The translations under genes and the position numbers were made by a program. A stretch of 64,000 nucleotides of DNA from Ignavibacteriales bacterium. Lineage in GTDB: Bacteria > Bacteroidota > Ignavibacteria > Ignavibacteriales > SURF-24. This document shows positions 45,824 through 55,602 of this stretch, in pieces. The DNA is taken from positions 34,481 to 98,480 of the forward strand of contig QZKB01000133.1 of assembly GCA_003599415.1 (NCBI GenBank). Reading direction: 5' to 3'. The notes below the pieces were generated by a model. The model worked only from the letters and a program-made list of their open reading frames with translations, made no database searches and had not been told where the DNA came from. Within the stretch, counting starts at the first letter, position 1. Each line of letters starts with the position of its first letter.

Positions 45824-46408
45824 TTATGCAATAGCATTTACTGCTTCCGCTAACTCCATTCCCTTCTTAAGGGCTTCTTCATTAAGCGGAATTAAATGAT
45901 GATATCTTTCAGGCAAAACTTTCTTTAAACCTTTCAGAATGTTTTCGAATTCTATAATTGGTTTCTTCTTCAAGAAAGCACCAAGCATAATCATATTAAG
46001 AATTTTTGTATTCTTCATTTTTGCAGCTTCATTAGCAGCATCAATTCCCACAATATCAATATCTGTTCTTGTGGGAGGATTAACTGCGGCAGAAGTATCA
46101 TATAAAAGAAGTCCGCCCGGTTTAACCGCTTTTTCAAATTTATCAATTGAAGGCTGATTCAATGCGATGACAGTATCAAATTTTGTAAGTATAGGTGAAC
46201 TGATTTCCTTATCGCTTACAATAACAATACAATTCGCAGTTCCGCCGCGCATTTCAGGTCCGTAGGAAGGCATCCAGCTTACTTCTTTGTCTTCCATTAC
46301 TCCTGAGTAACAAAGTATTTGTCCCATTGAAAGAACACCCTGCCCGCCGAATCCGGCAATTACCATTTCTTCTGTTCCGGAAAAATTAAACTTCATTGTA
46401 TTAGTCAT
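45824..46408 (-). CDS. 2-oxoacid:ferredoxin oxidoreductase, gamma subunit
   Basis: MVIAGFGGQGVLSMGQILCYSGV...VSWMPSYGPEMRGGTANCIVIVSD; start MTNTMKF after AAAGGAGG. Confidence 0.92.
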   Translation of the reverse strand: MTNTMKFNFSGTEEMVIAGFGGQGVLSMGQILCYSGVMEDKEVSWMPSYGPEMRGGTANCIVIVSDKEISSPILTKFDTVIALNQPSIDKFEKAVKPGGLLLYDTSAAVNPPTRTDIDIVGIDAANEAAKMKNTKILNMIMLGAFLKKKPIIEFENILKGLKKVLPERYHHLIPLNEEALKKGMELAEAVNAIA

Positions 46409-46409
46409 A

Positions 46410-47231
46410 CTATTTTCCCTCCTTTGGAACTTTGATATCACCAAGTGGATAATAAGGGAGCATATTTTCTTCGAGCCATTTATTTGCTGCTAATGGTGTC
46501 ATTTTCCAGTTTGAAGGGCAGTTTGAAACCAATTCCACAAAGCTTAATCCTTTATTTAATTTCTGGTATTCAAATCCTTTGAGAATAGCCTTCTTAGCTT
46601 TACGGACATTTGCAGGAGTATTTAATGCCTGACGTGTACAGTAATAAACTCCGGGAAGCTGTGCGACAAGTTCGGTTATCTTTAATGGATTACCCATTGT
46701 AACGACATCTCTTCCAAATGGTGATGTAGTTGATTTCATTCCGGGTAAAGTAGTAGGTGCCATTTGTCCGCCTGTCATTCCATATATTCCATTGTTTATA
46801 AAAACGATAAGAATATTTTCACCGCGGTTACATGTATGAATTGTCTCTCCTGTACCTATTGCAGCAAGATCACCATCACCCTGGTATGAGAATACATATT
46901 TTTCCGGCATAACTCTTTTAATGCCGGTAGCCACAGCAGAGGCTCTTCCGTGTGCAGCCTCCTGCATATCAATATTAAAATAATGATATGCAAAAACGGA
47001 ACAACCGACAGGTGCAACCCCAATTGTTTCAGATTGTATTCCAAGTTCACTGATTACTTCTGCAATAATTCTATGTGCAACACCATGACCGCAGCCAGGG
47101 CAATAATGGAAAGGAGTATCCGTTAAGGTTTCAGGTTTTTCGTAAACAAGATTATCCTTGACACAAACGCTTTCTTCTGCAATAACATTTTCGTAATGCT
47201 TTTCTTCTTCTAATAAAATTTTCTCGTTCAT
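46410..47231 (-). CDS. 2-oxoacid:ferredoxin oxidoreductase, TPP-binding beta subunit
   Basis: FHYCPGCGHGVAHRIIAEVI; YQGDGDLAAIGTGETIHTCNRGENILIVFINNGIYGMTGGQMAPTT. Confidence 0.93.
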   Translation of the reverse strand: MNEKILLEEEKHYENVIAEESVCVKDNLVYEKPETLTDTPFHYCPGCGHGVAHRIIAEVISELGIQSETIGVAPVGCSVFAYHYFNIDMQEAAHGRASAVATGIKRVMPEKYVFSYQGDGDLAAIGTGETIHTCNRGENILIVFINNGIYGMTGGQMAPTTLPGMKSTTSPFGRDVVTMGNPLKITELVAQLPGVYYCTRQALNTPANVRKAKKAILKGFEYQKLNKGLSFVELVSNCPSNWKMTPLAANKWLEENMLPYYPLGDIKVPKEGK

Positions 47232-48301
47232 ACTAATTCTCCTACAAACTTTTCTTCAAGTTTAGCAAGTACTTCTTCCGGTGATGGAATTATTCCACCC
47301 ATTCTGCCATGGAACTCAACGGGTACTTTGCCGTTAACAGCTAATCTAACATCTTCAACCATTTGACCAGCGTTCATCTCAATATCAAGTATTCCTTTAA
47401 TACTATTTGTAAGGTTTGTTATTTCATCATGAGGAAACGGGAACAGAGTTTTGGGTCGGAACACACCAACTTTAATTCCTTTTTCCCTTGCAAGCTGCGC
47501 TGCCTTATGGCAAACACGGGCTACTAAACCATACGCTGTTAGTATATAATCAGCATCATCACACATATATTTTTCAAATCTTGTCTCTTCATTTTCAATT
47601 TCCTTATATTTTTTCTGGAGATGAATATTTATTTCCTCCATCTTATCAGGTTCCATATTAAGCGAAGTAATATAATTTCTTTCACGGGTTTTAGGTTTAC
47701 CAACAGTTGCCCAGGGTTCTATTGTAGTTTTTCTTGGCTGCTGTTCAAAAAGTTCAACCTTTTCCATCATCTGACCAATTGCACCATCAGCAAGAATCAT
47801 AACCGGATTTCTCCACTTGAATGCAAGTTCAAATCCCAGTTTAACAAAATCCACCATTTCCTGAACAGTAGATGGAGCAAGAACAATCATTCTATAGTCA
47901 CCGTGTCCGCCACCTTTAACAGCCTGGAAATAATCTCCTTGTGAAGGTTGAATTGTACCCAAACCAGGACCGCCTCTGACAACATTTACAAGTAAACAAG
48001 GAAGTTCAGCGCAGGCAATATAAGAAATGCCTTCCTGCATTAAACTTATACCAGGGCTCGATGATGAAGTCATTGCAAGTTTACCACATCCTGCAGCGCC
48101 ATAAATCATATTTATAGCAGCAACTTCACTTTCAGCCTGAAGTATAACCATTCCTGTTCTTTTAGTAGCTTCCTGACTTAAATATTCAAGAACTTCTGAT
48201 TGTGGAGTTATTGGATAACCGAAATAAGCATCGCAACCGCTGCGTATTGCAGCCTCTGCCATAGCCTCGTTGCCTTTCATTAATCTTAGTTCTTTTTTCA
48301 T
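47228..48301 (-). CDS. 2-oxoacid:ferredoxin oxidoreductase, alpha subunit (VorB/KorA-like)
   Basis: MKGNEAMAEAAIRSGCDAYFGYPITPQSEVLEYLS; TSSSSPGISLMQEGISYIACAELPCLLVNVVRGGPGLGTIQPSQGDYFQAVKGGGHGDYR. Confidence 0.92.
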   Translation of the reverse strand: MKKELRLMKGNEAMAEAAIRSGCDAYFGYPITPQSEVLEYLSQEATKRTGMVILQAESEVAAINMIYGAAGCGKLAMTSSSSPGISLMQEGISYIACAELPCLLVNVVRGGPGLGTIQPSQGDYFQAVKGGGHGDYRMIVLAPSTVQEMVDFVKLGFELAFKWRNPVMILADGAIGQMMEKVELFEQQPRKTTIEPWATVGKPKTRERNYITSLNMEPDKMEEINIHLQKKYKEIENEETRFEKYMCDDADYILTAYGLVARVCHKAAQLAREKGIKVGVFRPKTLFPFPHDEITNLTNSIKGILDIEMNAGQMVEDVRLAVNGKVPVEFHGRMGGIIPSPEEVLAKLEEKFVGELV

Positions 48302-48585
48302 GTTGTCACCGTTACTGTTATATCTTTAGTTACATTAGTTATGGTTGCCACCGGGTCTTTTTTATCTAAAGTTTTTCGGTAAACTTTAATTATACCTTCG
48401 GGGCAAACCAAAGCACAGTTTGTACAGCCGGTGCAGTTATCCTCCACCTTAACAATAAAGTGATAACCTTTTGAGTTGATTTTCCTGGATAGTTCGAGGG
48501 AGTCTTGTGGACATGCAGCAGCGCATAACTCGCAGCCTTTGCATTTCTCAATATCAATCCAGATATCACCTTTTACTTTTGCCAT
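48298..48585 (-). CDS. 4Fe-4S ferredoxin-type delta subunit of the 2-oxoacid oxidoreductase
   Basis: CKGCELCAAACPQDSL and CTGCTNCALVCPEG. Confidence 0.92.
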   Translation of the reverse strand: MAKVKGDIWIDIEKCKGCELCAAACPQDSLELSRKINSKGYHFIVKVEDNCTGCTNCALVCPEGIIKVYRKTLDKKDPVATITNVTKDITVTVTT

Positions 48586-48606
48586 TTTTCACCTATGATT
48601 TAATAA

Positions 48607-48639
48607 ACAAAAAAGGTTACTAATTGTGTTAGTAACCTT
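48607..48639 (-). terminator. Terminator/attenuator hairpin upstream of the 2-oxoacid:ferredoxin oxidoreductase operon
   Basis: Minus strand AAGGTTACTAA-CACAA-TTAGTAACCTT (11 bp) followed by TTTTG; about 22 nt from the hairpin to the ferredoxin gene start region. Confidence 0.75.
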
Positions 48640-48715
48640 CACATTGGTTTAAATTTCCAACTAAAATGAATAGAATATTAAGGACGATTACATTTATAAA
48701 ATTAAATAATGACAT
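48629..48715 (-). CDS. Putative leader peptide, 28 aa: MSLFNFINVIVLNILFILVGNLNQCEGY
   Basis: ATG at 48715 after AGAAAGG; 12 of 28 residues are Ile/Leu/Val; TAA stop (48631-48629) lies in the 5' arm of the hairpin. Codon-by-codon translation; too short for the ORF track. Confidence 0.45.
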   Translation of the reverse strand: MSLFNFINVIVLNILFILVGNLNQCEGY

Positions 48716-48772
48716 TTACCTTTCTTCTCTTTTGATGCTAAATTACATTTTTCTTAATTGAAAAAAAAGAGT

Positions 48773-49672
48773 TTACAATTCAGCATGTTTATGTGCATGA
48801 TAAGAGCTTCTGACCAATGGACTTGATTCAACAGCTTTGAATCCCATTTCCAGTCCTTTTGTCTTGTACATACCGAATTCTTCCAAAGTAACATACCTGT
48901 CAACCGGTAAATGAATTTTTGTCGGTTGAAGATATTGTCCAATCGTTAATATATCACATCCGTGCTCACGCAAATCTTTCATAAGTTCTACGACTTCTTC
49001 AGGTTGTTCACCAATTCCAACCATAATTCCGCTTTTGGTTTTTAATCCTTTATTCTTGAACCATCTTATCAACTCCAGACTTCTTTCATATTTAGCCTGA
49101 GGTCTTACTGCATGATATAATCTTGGTACAGTCTCAAGGTTATGATTCAGAATGTCCGGAGGATTCTTCATTATTATTTCAAATGCTTCTTCATCACCTT
49201 TAAAATCAGGAATGAGTATTTCAATTGTGCATCCTGGCTTTTTGTTTCTTATCATTCTAACAGTTTCAGAAAATATTGATGCACCGCCATCTTTAAGTTC
49301 ATCACGATTAACTGAAGTTATAACTACATGATTGAGATTCAGTTCTTCTACTGCTTCGCTAACTCGTCTTGGTTCATCAAGATCAAGTTCGTTTGGTAAA
49401 CCAACTTTAACGTTACAAAAACCGCAACTACGGGTACAGGTATCACCAAGAATCATAAATGTAGCTGTCCTGTTATTCCAGCATTCGCCCATATTCGGAC
49501 ATTTAGCTTCTTCGCAAACTGTATGAAGCTTTGATTTTCTCATCAGGGCAAGAACATCTTTATAATTATCACCTGAAGGTAAACGGACTTTTAACCATTC
49601 AGGGCGATGACCCAAATCTTTTTTTTCCTTTTCTACCTGCTCTTTAAATTCTCTTTGATGCTGATTTATCAA
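48773..49672 (-). CDS. lipA: Lipoyl synthase
   Basis: CEEAKCPNMGECWNNRTATFMILGDTCTRSCGFCNVK; C-terminal VRSSYHA. Confidence 0.97.
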   Translation of the reverse strand: MINQHQREFKEQVEKEKKDLGHRPEWLKVRLPSGDNYKDVLALMRKSKLHTVCEEAKCPNMGECWNNRTATFMILGDTCTRSCGFCNVKVGLPNELDLDEPRRVSEAVEELNLNHVVITSVNRDELKDGGASIFSETVRMIRNKKPGCTIEILIPDFKGDEEAFEIIMKNPPDILNHNLETVPRLYHAVRPQAKYERSLELIRWFKNKGLKTKSGIMVGIGEQPEEVVELMKDLREHGCDILTIGQYLQPTKIHLPVDRYVTLEEFGMYKTKGLEMGFKAVESSPLVRSSYHAHKHAEL

Positions 49673-49698
49673 TTTTAGAAAACCTTTCTTTATTAAAA

Positions 49699-51342
49699 CT
49701 ACATTATACTAAAATCAAAATTTTCCAGATAATCTTTAACATATTTTAAAAATCTGCCGCTTAACATTCCATCAACCAATCTGTGGTCATGACTCAATGA
49801 TAAATACATCATTGGTTTTATAGTTATTGAGTCAATACCTTCTATTTCAACAACAACCGGTCTTTTTGTTACAGCTCCTACGCCAAGTATAGCCACTTCC
49901 GGCTGGTTTATTATCGGTGTTCCGAATAAAGAACCAAAAACGCCGTAATTAGTTATTGTAAATGTACCACCGGTAATATCATCTACCGATAATTTTTTTG
50001 TTTTTGCTTTGTTAGTAAGATCCACCAGGGCTTTTGCCAATCCTTTTATGTTTTTTTCATCGGCGTTTTTTATGTTAGGAACAATTAAACCGTTTGGTTC
50101 AAGAGCAACAGCAAAGCCAAGGTTAATATGCTTTTTTAAGACAATATTAGTGCCATCGATAGAAGCATTAACATAAGGATAGTGCTTTAACGCTTTAATT
50201 ACAGCAAACGCAATAAAAGGCAGATAGGTCAGCTTTACATTTTCTCTCTTAAGGTAAACATCTTTATTGTTTTTGATAAAATTATGAATCTTTGACATGT
50301 CAATTTCATTTATTGCCGCCACGTGAACCGATGTGTCCCTGCTTTTAACCATATGCTGCATAATTTTCTGGCGGATATTATCCATGGGTTCCTTGATAAA
50401 ATCCTCATCTTCTTTCCACTGTACTTTATTTTCAGTTTTAATTTTTTCAATTGGTTCTACTGAGATAGCGAGTTTCTTAACAGGTATGTTCTTTCTGTTT
50501 TCCAGGTAAGTAAAAATATCTTTTTTTGTCACCCTGTTTTCAATTCCGGTGCCTTTGATGTTCTCTAATTCTTCAAAACTAATATTTTCCTTTTGTGCGA
50601 TACTTAAAACCAATGGAGAATAAAATTTATTACCAGGTTTATTCCTAAGAGATTGAGGAGAAACTGTATCAAATCCTTCAATAACATTAGCAGATGAATC
50701 TGAAAAGGCGGCAGATTCAACAAATTCCATTTTAGTTTGTTTATTTTGAATTTCAGGTTCAGGAGTTATTCCTCCTTTAGCAGAAATTTTTGCAACTATA
50801 GTTCCCACATAAACTGTCTCCTGCTCGCCCACAAGAATCTCTGTAATAGTACCTTCTTCCGGAGATGGTATTTCGGTATCTACTTTATCAGTCGTAATTT
50901 CAAAAAGTATTTCGTCTTTCTTTACAGCATCACCGGCTTTTTTATGCCATTTGATGATTGTACCTTCCATAACAGATTCACCCATTTTAGGCATTGGAAT
51001 TTCTATTATAGCTCCCCCAACCTGTTTAGTAGAAAATGCTTCCGCCGGTTTGCTTTCTTCAGCAGGATTATCAGGTCCAGGACTTTCCGCTTTAAAATTA
51101 TTTATATCAGTTTCAAGAGTAGCAACAACTGTATCAACTGCAACAGTTTCCTGTTCAAAAACTTTTATATCAACTAAAATACCATCGTTGGGTGATGGAA
51201 TTTCCGTATCAACTTTATCAGTAGAAATTTCAAAAATAATTTCATCTTTTTTTACAGCATCGCCAACTTTCTTATGCCATTTTATTATTGTGCCTTCATT
51301 GATGCTCTCTCCCATCTTGGGCATTATAATATTAATTTTCAT
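49699..51342 (-). CDS. Dihydrolipoamide acyltransferase E2 of a 2-oxoacid dehydrogenase complex (two lipoyl domains)
   Basis: Two EI(S/T)TDKVDTEIPSP lipoyl motifs; SHDHRLVDGMLSGRFLKYV. Start refined to MKINIIMPKMGES; the upstream ORF extension derives from a repeat. Confidence 0.95.
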   Translation of the reverse strand: MKINIIMPKMGESINEGTIIKWHKKVGDAVKKDEIIFEISTDKVDTEIPSPNDGILVDIKVFEQETVAVDTVVATLETDINNFKAESPGPDNPAEESKPAEAFSTKQVGGAIIEIPMPKMGESVMEGTIIKWHKKAGDAVKKDEILFEITTDKVDTEIPSPEEGTITEILVGEQETVYVGTIVAKISAKGGITPEPEIQNKQTKMEFVESAAFSDSSANVIEGFDTVSPQSLRNKPGNKFYSPLVLSIAQKENISFEELENIKGTGIENRVTKKDIFTYLENRKNIPVKKLAISVEPIEKIKTENKVQWKEDEDFIKEPMDNIRQKIMQHMVKSRDTSVHVAAINEIDMSKIHNFIKNNKDVYLKRENVKLTYLPFIAFAVIKALKHYPYVNASIDGTNIVLKKHINLGFAVALEPNGLIVPNIKNADEKNIKGLAKALVDLTNKAKTKKLSVDDITGGTFTITNYGVFGSLFGTPIINQPEVAILGVGAVTKRPVVVEIEGIDSITIKPMMYLSLSHDHRLVDGMLSGRFLKYVKDYLENFDFSIM

Positions 51343-51350
51343 ATTAGAAG

Positions 51351-51380
51351 CCTCTCCCAAACCCTCTCCCAAGGAGAGGG
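51351..51380 (-). repeat. GAGAGGG-type short palindromic repeat between E1 and E2 genes
   Basis: Minus strand CCCTCTCCTTGGGAGAGGGTTTGGGAGAGG; translates to SLGEGLGE in the ORF extension. Confidence 0.65.
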
Positions 51381-51389
51381 CTTTTAATT

Positions 51390-53474
51390 TCAATAATCCA
51401 ATAATTCTTTAATTGCTTTAGTGATTTTATCTTTTGTTGGTAGTATTGCCGTTTCCAGATTTGGGTGATATGCAATTGGCGTATCTTCAGATGCTAACCT
51501 CTTTACTGGTCCATCAAGATATTTAAAACATTTATCTGATATTCGAGCAGCAATTTCAGCACCGAATCCACCTGTTAGTGTATCCTCATGAATTACAATT
51601 GCTTTGCCGGTTTTCTTAACAGAATTAACAATTGTTTCCTCATCAAGCGGATTAATAGTTCTGATATCAATAACTTCAACCGAGTAACCATTCTCTTCAA
51701 GTTTATGTGCAGCAAATTTCGAATCGTGAACCATTGCACCATATGTAATCACCGAAAGGTCATTCCCATCTTTAACAATCTTAGCTTTACCAAACGGCAG
51801 CAGGTAATCCGCATCTGGCTCAGGTACAGTTGCATAACTCTGCCTGTACAAACCTTTATGCTCAAGAAACAGAACCGGGTCGTTTAATCTGCAGGCAGTT
51901 TTTAATAATCCTTTTGCATCTGCAGCGTTTGATGGATAAGCGATTAACAATCCCGGTATATGAGCAAAGAATGATTCAATATTCTGGCTGTGATAAAGTC
52001 CGCCATGAATATAACCTCCGACCGGAACTCTTGTAACTACAGGAGCTTCCCAGAAATTATTTGAACGATACCTGAACATAGATACTTCATTCCTGAACTG
52101 CATAAATGAAGGCCAGATATAATCACCGAACTGAATTTCAACGACAGGCTTTAATCCTTTTAACGCCATACCTACAGCAACGCCAATTATGCTTGCTTCA
52201 GCAAGCGGCGAATTAAAAACTCTTTCATTGCCAAATTGTGTAGATAACCCTTTGGTTGCGGTAAACACTCCACCTTTTCCATCGGCTACATCCTGCCCGA
52301 AGACATACATCTTTTCATTTCTTTCCATCTCTTCACGAAGTGCATGATTGATAGAATCAACCATAACGACAGGTTTACCATTTACTGTTGTCTTCTCATA
52401 ACCAAGTTTATCTTTTTTACCGCTTTCATCATAAACATAAAGTGTTGCAGAAGAACTTTTAGGATTAGCTTGCTGAAGAGCCCAGTCAGCAGCTTCTTCA
52501 ACATGATTATTTACTTCCTTTTTCAATTCATTAAAAGCCTGATCTGTAAGAATTCCTTTTTTAATAAGTAGCTGAGAAAAATTATTTATTGGACATCTTC
52601 TAAGCTCCTCTTCAAGTTCTTCTTTATTTCTGTACTTCCTCTGGTCATCGGAAGAAGAATGAGGAAACAACCTAACTACTTCAGCTTCAATTAAAGCAGG
52701 ACCTTTACCCTGGCGCGCATATTTAAAAGCAGATTGTGCTGCCGCATGAATCTGGAGGTATTCAAGACCATTCACTTTCTGCCGGAAAAGATTTTCGTAA
52801 CCTTTCATCATTTCTGCAATTGAATAATCCTTGCCGCCTGTCTGATTCTGAACAGGAACAGAAATAGCAAATTTATTATTCTGAATAACAAATACTACGG
52901 CAAGTTTATCCCGGCTTGCCCAGTTAACCGCTTCATGAAATTCACCTTCGCTTGTAGTACCTTCACCGCTGCTTACGTATGTAACTGCGTTCGATCCGCT
53001 TTTTTTATGAGCTAATGCAACACCAACTGCCTGCAAAAATTGTGTACCAGTAGGACTTGACTGTGTAGGGACATTTAATTCTTTCGATCCCCAATGATTC
53101 GGCATTTGTCGTCCGCCGGTCATTATATCATCTGCCTTGGCAAGATGCTGCATAAAAAAATCCTGAGGTTTTATTCCAAGTGCCAGCATAAATGCCAGAT
53201 CACGGTAATAAGGAAAAGCCCAATCAATTCCGGGATGCATAGCAAGTCCGCAAGCAACCTGAGCTGCCTCGTGCCCTGCTGCTGCAAGGTGAAAAAAAGA
53301 TTTACCCTGCTTTAATAAATTCATGGCTTTACTGTCAAGCTGGCGTGAACTGTACATTAAACGTAGTGCGTTCATCAGTTCGTCTTTGGTTAGACCACCA
53401 TATGAATCTATTTTGCCCGTAGGAACTTCGGCTAAAAGTTCATCCTTCAAAATACTCATCCCTTTTCCTTTCAT
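51390..53474 (-). CDS. 2-oxoacid dehydrogenase E1, fused alpha and beta subunits (branched-chain type)
   Basis: N-terminal alpha domain YVSSGEGTTSEGEFHEAVNWAS; C-terminal beta domain FGQDVADGKGGVFTATKGL...FNSPLAEASIIGVAVGMALKGLKPVVEIQFGDY. Confidence 0.93.
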   Translation of the reverse strand: MKGKGMSILKDELLAEVPTGKIDSYGGLTKDELMNALRLMYSSRQLDSKAMNLLKQGKSFFHLAAAGHEAAQVACGLAMHPGIDWAFPYYRDLAFMLALGIKPQDFFMQHLAKADDIMTGGRQMPNHWGSKELNVPTQSSPTGTQFLQAVGVALAHKKSGSNAVTYVSSGEGTTSEGEFHEAVNWASRDKLAVVFVIQNNKFAISVPVQNQTGGKDYSIAEMMKGYENLFRQKVNGLEYLQIHAAAQSAFKYARQGKGPALIEAEVVRLFPHSSSDDQRKYRNKEELEEELRRCPINNFSQLLIKKGILTDQAFNELKKEVNNHVEEAADWALQQANPKSSSATLYVYDESGKKDKLGYEKTTVNGKPVVMVDSINHALREEMERNEKMYVFGQDVADGKGGVFTATKGLSTQFGNERVFNSPLAEASIIGVAVGMALKGLKPVVEIQFGDYIWPSFMQFRNEVSMFRYRSNNFWEAPVVTRVPVGGYIHGGLYHSQNIESFFAHIPGLLIAYPSNAADAKGLLKTACRLNDPVLFLEHKGLYRQSYATVPEPDADYLLPFGKAKIVKDGNDLSVITYGAMVHDSKFAAHKLEENGYSVEVIDIRTINPLDEETIVNSVKKTGKAIVIHEDTLTGGFGAEIAARISDKCFKYLDGPVKRLASEDTPIAYHPNLETAILPTKDKITKAIKELLDY

Positions 53475-53501
53475 TTTTTCCTTTGGTTAATTAGAAATTT
53501 T

Positions 53502-54230
53502 TCAGGAATCAAGTTTAATTTCATGTTCTCTATGTTCCCTTATAAAATCAATTCCTTTTTCATTGCTTCGGTTAAAGCTGAATACGAGTTTGAAATTCTT
53601 AAGTATAAAGTTTTTGACTTCATACATATCAATTTCTTTCCCGAGTTCATTTTTAAGAGAAGTAACGGTTTTATCTTTAATACCGCAAGGAATAATTCCG
53701 TTAAACAAATTAAGGTTGGTATTTATATTAAAGGCGAAGCCGTGCATTGTTATCCATCTGCTTACTTTAATTCCGATAGCAGCAATCTTTCTGTTGTCAA
53801 TCCAGGCGCCTGTTAATCCATCTATTCTGGTACAATCCAAACCATAATCTTTACAGGTAAGTATAATAACTTCCTCAAGTCCGCGTAAATAGCGATGTGT
53901 ATCCTGGTACCATTGAGATAAATTAATTATCGGATAACCGACTAATTGCCCGGGGCCATGATAGGTTATATCTCCGCCTCTGTCAATTTCATAAACCGAA
54001 ATTTTGTTTCGTTCCAGATATTCCTTGTTGCTAACAAGATTATTTTTGTCAGTTACTTTTCCTAATGTATAAGTATGAGGGTGTTCAAGTAAAAGAAAAG
54101 AATCATTGATAAGATTTTTCCCTCTTAATTCGAAAATATCTTTTTGTAAATCCCATGCCTGTTTATAATCAATAAGGCCGAGATCGTAATAATCAAATTC
54201 TCTATATGTGAATTGCTTCGTTGTATGCAT
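53502..54230 (-). CDS. lipB: Lipoyl(octanoyl) transferase
   Basis: LLLEHPHTYTLGKVTDKNNL; RGGDITYHGPGQLVGYPIINL; HGFAFNINTNLNLFNGIIPCGI; start refined to MHTTKQF. Confidence 0.94.
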   Translation of the reverse strand: MHTTKQFTYREFDYYDLGLIDYKQAWDLQKDIFELRGKNLINDSFLLLEHPHTYTLGKVTDKNNLVSNKEYLERNKISVYEIDRGGDITYHGPGQLVGYPIINLSQWYQDTHRYLRGLEEVIILTCKDYGLDCTRIDGLTGAWIDNRKIAAIGIKVSRWITMHGFAFNINTNLNLFNGIIPCGIKDKTVTSLKNELGKEIDMYEVKNFILKNFKLVFSFNRSNEKGIDFIREHREHEIKLDS

Positions 54231-55602
54231 TTGCGACTGCTTCCATAACTGATTCTGATAATGTAGGATGAGCATGAACAGTTTTAATAATTGATTCAAA
54301 AGTTGCTTCCATAGATTTTGCCAGAGTGAACTCTGCAATTAATTCTGTTGCATTAGCACCTATTACATGGGCACCCAACAGTTCGCCGTACTTTGCATCA
54401 AAAATGACTTTTACAAATCCGTCTCTTTCTCCGGTCGCAAAGGCTTTTCCGCTTGCGGTAAAAGGAAATTTTCCCACTTTTATTTCGTAACCTTCTTCTT
54501 TTGCCCGCTGCTCAGTTAGTCCAACACTTGCTACCTGGGGCTGGCAATAAGTACAGCCAGGAATCGTAGTGTAATCAACTTCTGAAGGATTCAATCCATT
54601 CAAAGTTTCCACACAATGAATTCCTTCTGCAGATGCAACGTGCGCTAACCAGGGCGGACCAATAACATCTCCGATTGCATAAATATTTTTAATGTTCGTC
54701 TGGTATGAATGTTTATCAACTTTGATATGATTTTTGTAAAGCTCAACACCAAGTTCCTCAAGACCAAATCCTTCCACATTTCCAACAATGCCAATTGCAT
54801 TCAACACAATATCTGAAGAAATTATTTTACTTTCTCCGTTTATTGTAACATTCACTTCAACTTTATCATCAGCTGCTTTAACATTATCAACTGTAGCTTT
54901 GGTATGTATTACAATTCCCTTTTTCTTTAAAATCTTTTCAAGCGTTTCACTTACTTCTTTATCTTCAATAGGCAAGATATTATCCATCATTTCAATTAAT
55001 GTAACTTTAGTACCAAGAGCATTATAGAAATATGCGAACTCAACTCCAATTGCACCGGCACCAACAATAACCATTTCATTTGGTTGCTCACTAAGATTCA
55101 TAGCTTCAGTACTTGTAATAACCTTTTTTCTGTCCACAGGAATCTGCGGAATTGTTCTTGATCTTGCCCCGGTTGAGATAATTATTTTTTCAGTTTCAAT
55201 TGAATCGATAATCTTTCCATTATCATCAAGCACATCAATTTTATTGTTGCCGGAAAGTTTTCCAAAACCTTTTATTACTTCAATTTTATTTTTCTTCATC
55301 AGGAATTCAACATTCTTAGAAATCCTGCCAGAAATATCGCGGCTACGCATAATCACTTTTTTAAAATCAAAGCTTACGTTTTCTACTTCCAAACCATAAT
55401 CTTTCGAGTGTTTAATCTCTTCAAGAAGTTCAGCGCTTTTAAGAAGGGATTTTGTTGGAATACATCCCCAGTTAAGACAAACTCCGCCAAGCTTATCCTT
55501 TTCAATAATAACAGTTTTGTATCCCAATTGAGCAGCACGGATTGCAGCAACATAACCACCTGGTCCCCCGCCAAGAATGGCAATTTCGAATGATTTGGAC
55601 AT
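54202..55602 (-). CDS. lpdA: Dihydrolipoyl dehydrogenase
   Basis: GGGPGGYVAAIRAAQLG; GGVCLNWGCIPTKSLL redox disulfide; HAHPTLSESVMEA. Confidence 0.97.
   Translation of the reverse strand: MSKSFEIAILGGGPGGYVAAIRAAQLGYKTVIIEKDKLGGVCLNWGCIPTKSLLKSAELLEEIKHSKDYGLEVENVSFDFKKVIMRSRDISGRISKNVEFLMKKNKIEVIKGFGKLSGNNKIDVLDDNGKIIDSIETEKIIISTGARSRTIPQIPVDRKKVITSTEAMNLSEQPNEMVIVGAGAIGVEFAYFYNALGTKVTLIEMMDNILPIEDKEVSETLEKILKKKGIVIHTKATVDNVKAADDKVEVNVTINGESKIISSDIVLNAIGIVGNVEGFGLEELGVELYKNHIKVDKHSYQTNIKNIYAIGDVIGPPWLAHVASAEGIHCVETLNGLNPSEVDYTTIPGCTYCQPQVASVGLTEQRAKEEGYEIKVGKFPFTASGKAFATGERDGFVKVIFDAKYGELLGAHVIGANATELIAEFTLAKSMEATFESIIKTVHAHPTLSESVMEAVANAYNEAIHI

Follow-up and report, generated by a model that had tools for sequence, protein, structure and literature searches.

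To our knowledge, the amino-acid-sensing leader peptides described so far all act as switches that starvation turns on, in biosynthetic operons or ahead of synthetase genes. In the Escherichia coli leaders ilvL, leuL, trpL, hisL and thrL, a short reading frame rich in codons for operon-linked amino acids is followed by a terminator that precedes the first gene. A 2010 survey knew of no such leaders outside the Proteobacteria, the Actinobacteria and, by its own finding, the Firmicutes (PMC2965389). The pyrBI operon of E. coli has a leader, pyrL, whose reading frame runs through the intrinsic terminator without any antiterminator; a ribosome that is close behind RNA polymerase stops the hairpin from folding and permits read-through (PMC5021804, PMC4824070), and a ribosome stall upstream of the terminator raised termination (PMC5021804).

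The locus described here lies in the window, by which is meant the whole analysed stretch of 64,000 nucleotides from the draft genome of an Ignavibacteriales bacterium, and it resembles both kinds of leader. It shares the codon-rich leader and the terminator before the first gene with the five amino acid leaders, and it shares the overlap of reading frame and terminator, the lack of an antiterminator and, in the proposed mechanism, the masking of the hairpin by a ribosome with pyrL. We hold with considerable confidence that it is a ribosome-controlled transcription attenuator of reversed polarity placed before the operon vorDABG.

The vor locus and its terminator

The operon lies on the minus strand of the window. 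Its first gene behind the attenuator is vorD (48298..48585), which encodes a ferredoxin-type delta subunit and for which orthologs were found; the genes of the alpha subunit (47228..48301), the TPP-binding beta subunit (46410..47231) and the gamma subunit (45824..46444, with a true start probably near 46409) complete the set in order. The alpha subunit matches the NCBIfam 2-oxoisovalerate:ferredoxin oxidoreductase model “VorB” (NF005507) at 555 bits, above the curated cut-off of 399, and the best matches of the beta, gamma and delta subunits lie below their curated cut-offs. Specificity of the enzyme for branched-chain 2-oxoacids is presumed at the level of annotation, from that one NCBIfam match.

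The upstream gene on the same strand is lipA (48773..49672), which is outside the attenuator; it ends at 48773, and the leader starts 57 nt further downstream. Further genes upstream on the same strand encode an E2 of a 2-oxoacid dehydrogenase and a fused E1. The minus strand from 45824 to 54338 thus carries a lipB-like gene, the fused E1, E2, lipA and vorDABG in one run, and lipoate-dependent and ferredoxin-dependent 2-oxoacid dehydrogenases thereby share one neighbourhood.

Of 146 related genomes, 140 have a homolog of VorD. The comparison covers the upstream DNA of 63 vorD loci from the Ignavibacteria, the group that contains the window genome; these belong to the window's own family (f1), to a second family (f2, assigned to the Melioribacteraceae from named GTDB records, among them Stygiobacter electus and Melioribacter roseus) and to a few others. 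Controls were run on individual loci. The vorD-like loci of Clostridia, Cloacimonadota and others have no such leader.

The intrinsic terminator hairpin of the window (GAAGGTTACTAA-CACAA-TTAGTAACCTTT, 48612..48640, minus strand) has an 11-bp stem at 48639-48613, formed by the arms AAGGTTACTAA (48639-48629) and TTAGTAACCTT (48623-48613) on either side of a CACAA loop, and it is followed by the T tract TTTTGTTTATTA (48601..48612), which is conserved in the alignment of the relatives. The first-pass annotation of this DNA had described a leader reading frame, an 11-bp hairpin and a T tract between lipA and vorD, and all three lie exactly where it had placed them. The hairpin is the only terminator within 48400-48900, where 0.1 would be expected, and the pattern AAGGTTAC...GTAACCTTTT has a single match in the 5.0-Mb genome.

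An intrinsic terminator is found 20-37 nt before vorD in 49 of the 63 loci, which represent 24 genera. In an alignment of 24 genus representatives that was built without reference to the structure, pairing in the nine-pair stem reaches 97.7%, there are 24 double-sided changes compared with 7.8 in shuffles, and slid registers fail. When a looser pattern is applied to 30 relatives, all AAGGTTAY-type matches sit at the vor locus and the other terminators that are matched are mostly of GC-richer AAGGCTGYC types, so that the vor terminator constitutes a distinct and weaker kind. The weaker AAGGTTAY forms the stem in most genera, with GGCTGCA or GGCTACA in a few. A search of eight loci against Rfam, including T-box and other leader families, gave no gathering-level match, and on the window region only unrelated sub-threshold matches appeared at E <= 1. 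The hairpin, its T tract and its covariation indicate that a putative intrinsic terminator stands between leader and first gene, as in attenuators of the broad class.

The first-pass annotation had cautioned that the hairpin might simply be the terminator of lipA and the small reading frame a product of chance, and there is something to be said for this: the window hairpin does come after lipA, and many short reading frames arise in AT-rich DNA. Among the 49 loci, however, 19 have no lipA within 700 nt, and the 20-37 nt that separate nearly every hairpin from vorD leave scant room for another promoter. Since the reading frame statistics (z 12) and the codon-level selection described below also argue against it, a lipA terminator accompanied by chance reading frames is very improbable.

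The promoter side of the locus varies between families. An element containing TGGCA lies upstream of the leader start in 35 of the 49 leader-bearing loci, mostly by 40-47 nt, and in the form TGGCAYG-N4-TTTC it occurs in L005-L008, L011, L013, L015-L030 and others. In genomes of the Melioribacteraceae type this conserved, promoter-like element stands a short way ahead of the leader. It resembles the -24 box of a sigma54 promoter; the -12 box is mostly non-consensus, in that it usually is not the consensus GC, and rpoN is present in all eight genomes tested. Further upstream, TTCTCA and TTCTCA...TGAAAA motifs recur, which could be activator sites. The TGGCA element is absent from f1, where the leader follows directly, at a short distance, behind lipA; in that family the attenuator would therefore act on read-through that enters from lipA or starts at an unseen promoter, and lipA is probably co-transcribed.

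The 14 loci that have no hairpin (L023, L028, L029, L031, L032, L034, L038, L048, L051, L052, L061, L082, L087 and L090) have no comparable leader rich in Ile, Leu and Val (ILV) either. A hairpin retained without the leader was the pattern that the first-pass annotation had named as contrary to its proposal; the two are instead retained together in 49 loci of 24 genera and are missing together in these 14. In nine of the 14 a TGGCA or TGGTA element precedes vorD by 39-83 nt, an arrangement that looks as though the cassette of leader and terminator were missing from between promoter and gene.

The leader reading frame and its codons

The leader of the window, for which the name vorL is proposed, is a reading frame of 28 codons (MSLFNFINVIVLNILFILVGNLNQCEGY*) at 48629..48715 on the minus strand, with its ATG at 48715 and its TAA at 48631-48629, the last three nucleotides of the hairpin's 5' arm. 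A possible ribosome-binding sequence, AGAAAGG (48719..48725), precedes it and is identical in the same-family locus L009. Isoleucine, leucine and valine make up 12 of the 27 residues after the methionine, and most stand in a control-codon core (I N V I V L N I L F I L V, 48659..48697) that occupies the same place as the ILV peak of the relatives.

A short ILV-rich reading frame is found in all 49 hairpin loci, where it starts 43-96 nt upstream of the hairpin and runs to, into or through it; the start codons were picked by hand, and a minority of the leaders use GTG or TTG. In the exceptional locus L021 the frame continues into vorD. Reading frames that reach the hairpin occur in 48 of the 49 loci compared with 23.5 when the upstream 110 nt are dinucleotide-shuffled, and when only ATG is admitted as a start the count is 39 compared with 12.3. 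The ILV codons in these frames have a genus-weighted mean of 9.4 over 24 genera compared with 2.5 +- 0.56 (z 12); for the window locus alone, shuffled upstream DNA matches the ILV-codon count of a hairpin-reaching frame in 1.3% of trials.

The codon composition of the leaders before the hairpin is specific in several respects. ILV codons account for 47% compared with 31% in base shuffles, and for 29% and 8.5% in the other two frames. Isoleucine contributes 25% (z 7.5), leucine 16% (z 2.8) and valine 5.6% (z 3.2), and Phe, Tyr and Ser are below expectation. CTA is the codon for 43% of the leucines (null 17%, z 5.9); its count is 30.8 in frame compared with 4.1 and 1.0 out of frame, and it encodes 5.3% of the 1424 leucines of vorD and vorA in the same loci. 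An origin of the hydrophobicity in AT-richness, the chance mini-ORF of the earlier caution, is rejected on account of the depletion of Phe and Tyr and by the frame bias of CTA.

Between related pairs of loci, ILV codons remain ILV codons in 73 of 84 cases (59.2 +- 3.7 expected), and substitutions are spread evenly over the three codon positions (40/38/47). The exact leader peptide is not conserved. These observations bear on the suggestion that the product is a specific arrest peptide or a hydrophobic microprotein, whose nascent chain would sense a metabolite in the manner of TnaC. A local motif, (I/L)(I/L/V)EI, recurs in many leaders and would suit such a peptide, but the flat substitution pattern with retention of the ILV class only, the range of lengths from 14 to over 30 residues, and a preference for CTA that points to decoding and not to peptide sequence all speak against an arrest peptide, which is scarcely credible. 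The conserved reading frame, the retained ILV class and the choice of CTA are, judged from sequence, the marks of a putative codon-sensing leader and not those of a conserved peptide or of AT-rich noise. A reading frame with in-frame ILV and CTA enrichment in 24 genera would also supply the upstream leader that an attenuator of the broad class requires.

If the ILV codons were incidental, or served a general sensing of translation speed, then translation of the leader might do no more than guard constitutively against early termination, or feed reinitiation at vorD. The leader does stop close to the vorD start in several loci, and reinitiation has been proposed as a general role of leader reading frames (PMC4833913). 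Such constitutive coupling does not explain why the enrichment is specific to Ile, Leu and Val, the parents of the enzyme's substrates, with no specific enrichment of Phe, Ala or Met, nor why a rare leucine codon is enriched in frame, nor why the ILV block is sharply positioned, as shown below; it is considered unlikely.

Geometry, folding and proposed polarity

The position at which the leader ends is variable. Relative to the base of the hairpin, the stops of the 49 loci range from -14 to +60, and they fall before the hairpin, in its 5' arm (as in the window), in the loop, in the 3' arm or beyond. The alignment of relatives suggested by the first-pass annotation bears out the reading frame and its ILV enrichment, but not a general placement of the stop within the 5' arm, which holds for about a quarter of the loci. 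What is conserved is that the reading frame never ends short of the hairpin region.

The control codons end sharply. At A-site positions -36 to -19 the ILV density is 0.56-0.80, and from -18 onward it is 0.31 or less; the step at -18 amounts to a difference of 0.437, compared with 0 +- 0.053 when codons are permuted within reading frames. CTA codons nearly vanish at -18 too, and the core of the window ends just before that position. The drop could partly reflect limits on base composition beside the terminator. It falls at about the place where a stalled ribosome would begin to hinder the hairpin. In E. coli, 10-15 nt of free mRNA past the A site lets a hairpin fold fully (PMC4824070). Since such a length suffices and the ILV block ends at -18, the terminator would be just clear of a ribosome held at the last ILV codon, and a ribosome that moved on would cover it.

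Folding of the leader RNA with a masked ribosome, for which a footprint from E. coli was assumed, gives predictions of the same kind. With the A site upstream of -12 the terminator has a probability of at least 0.84 in 49 of 49 loci, and with the A site at the end of the reading frame it falls below 0.5 in 45 of 49. Weak masking is predicted for four loci (L004, L010, L036 and L046), where the stop lies 6-14 nt before the hairpin.

Equilibrium folding of the full-length RNA with a mask is blind to antiterminators, and the E. coli controls, trpL among them, show none by it either; for this reason a second test folded transcripts that stop where the 5' arm ends. The positive controls thrL, trpL and leuL gave 5'-arm pairing of 0.64, 0.67 and 0.47 with a stalled ribosome compared with 0.01, 0.03 and 0.10 with the ribosome at the stop; hisL and ilvL were uninformative. 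In the 49 vor loci the pairing was 0.371, equal to the 0.371 of shuffled upstream sequence, so that no stall-dependent antiterminator was detected by this test. Two candidate pairings were set aside: the AACC/GGTT complementarity seen by eye upstream of several hairpins and the 5-bp TTAGT/ACTAA alternative that the first-pass annotation had noted, neither of which exceeds shuffles.

These results speak against attenuation of the classical ilv type, in which a stall on starvation would free an antiterminator and scarcity of branched-chain amino acids would turn vor on, for instance to make 2-oxoacids reductively. Some anaerobes can use vor enzymes in the reductive direction, and the leader has the ILV-rich composition (47% compared with 31%), the rare CTA codons and the terminator of a classical system, as well as the AACC-GGTT complementarity already mentioned. 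The mechanism is nevertheless unsupported, because the 5'-arm pairing of vor equals that of shuffles whereas thrL, trpL and leuL are positive. In addition, completed translation would block a terminator that is overlapped by the reading frame, whereas classical stops lie 21-64 nt upstream, and the control codons lie mostly at -36 to -18 and not at about -107 to -39. Classical attenuation is thus held to be improbable.

Masking with reversed polarity, which the first-pass annotation had proposed, fits better: it would agree with the geometry, with the abrupt loss of ILV codons at -18 and with the lack of an antiterminator above chance. If the tRNAs for Ile, Leu and Val are charged, the ribosome would trail RNA polymerase closely, would move onto the 5' arm of the hairpin and block its folding, and transcription would read into vorDABG. 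If one of those tRNAs is uncharged, the ribosome would wait at the ILV codons, too far behind to keep the hairpin from folding, and transcription would end before vor. It follows from masking with charged tRNAs that expression of vor would be tied to plentiful Ile, Leu and Val, and an operon for catabolism of branched-chain 2-oxoacids would be expressed only when the parent amino acids abound. That the conserved leader attenuator senses Ile, Leu and Val is very probable, and its polarity is most likely reversed; translation of the leader, actual termination, and the assignment of read-through to plenty and termination to starvation are what we infer.

The required sensitivity to stop position has a precedent in E. 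coli, where shifting a stop codon from 28 bp to 5 bp ahead of a terminator reduced termination from ~90% to <10% (PMC4824070). The weakest step of the model is its kinetics, since ribosomes seldom catch the polymerase within the first 100 nt unless it is paused; terminators in the first 100 bp of a reading frame usually escape ribosomes in E. coli unless RNA polymerase pauses (PMC4824070). A cultured type strain, Melioribacter roseus P3M-2T (locus L035), would allow a direct test of the proposal, and the loci form a natural comparative series for the question of how tight the coupling of ribosome and RNA polymerase must be in these bacteria.

Comparison with known systems

The vor leader differs from ilvL, leuL, trpL, hisL and thrL in that no antiterminator was found, the stop lies at or past the terminator and the control codons are near the hairpin; the predicted polarity is reversed and the operon is catabolic. 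It resembles leuL in its use of rare CTA leucine codons. By the distance between stop and hairpin, the vor leaders group with pyrL (+44) and not with thr, trp, ilv, leu and his (-21 to -64), and a reading frame that reaches or overlaps the terminator without an antiterminator, the layout of the pyrBI type, is found throughout, with four loci borderline. The likeness to pyrL is one of layout, and sequence homology is not claimed. pyrL differs in that it responds to UTP by way of polymerase pausing and contains no control codons, whereas the vor leader has ILV codons and precedes a catabolic operon; the ILV codons suggest a sensor other than a UTP-sensitive polymerase pause.

Control of branched-chain catabolism by plenty is also exercised at promoters. 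In Bacillus, sigma54 and BkdR control the branched-chain 2-oxoacid dehydrogenase, which is induced in plenty. The proposed vor control is alike in that branched-chain 2-oxoacid catabolism would be on in plenty, and the TGGCA element of the relatives and their rpoN recall it. The Bacillus system differs in acting at the promoter level, and the window's family is without the TGGCA element, the -12 box elsewhere being mostly non-consensus as described.

A comparison on the biosynthetic side is provided by ilvD, which served as the control; leuA of the window genome was unusable as it lies inside an operon. The ilvD leaders of the same genomes (L167-L174) are likewise ILV-rich and contain CTA codons, but their stops lie 7-10 nt before a conserved GTCAATCCC...GGGATTGAC inverted repeat and do not overlap a T-tract terminator. 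The leader of the window genome (L170, G000:C64) ends ...NILLGIIILVLVAIIISILG, and several of the ilvD leaders end ...ILG just before the repeat; longer-range pairing with the ilvD start region is possible. In a partial analysis these leaders gave no Rfam match, and a strong T-tract terminator was not identified. They look like a biosynthetic ilv leader nearer to classical attenuation, apparently undescribed in the Ignavibacteria. Because the ilvD operons carry ILV leaders of their own, such leaders are in general use in the clade, and if the present reading is true the same ILV codons could read one signal with opposite sign for breakdown (vor) and for synthesis (ilvD).

An earlier description of a catabolic or reversed-polarity amino acid leader was not found in the part of the open-access literature that was searched. 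The vor leaders probably form a conserved class of attenuators activated by charged tRNA, in which control codons stand right before a terminator reached by the reading frame, and in which the supply of amino acids, not starvation, would activate a catabolic operon by ribosome masking. In a deep branch near the Bacteroidota and Chlorobi, the same sensor thus appears to be wired to a catabolic operon in the opposite sense, and the reversal could have come about by a simple change, in which the reading frame was moved onto the terminator and the antiterminator was dropped. With respect to the known systems, the best reading of what is new is the combination of the geometry of pyrBI with amino acid codons of the kind found in the biosynthetic leaders and with a polarity, deduced from the arrangement, that is the reverse of theirs.
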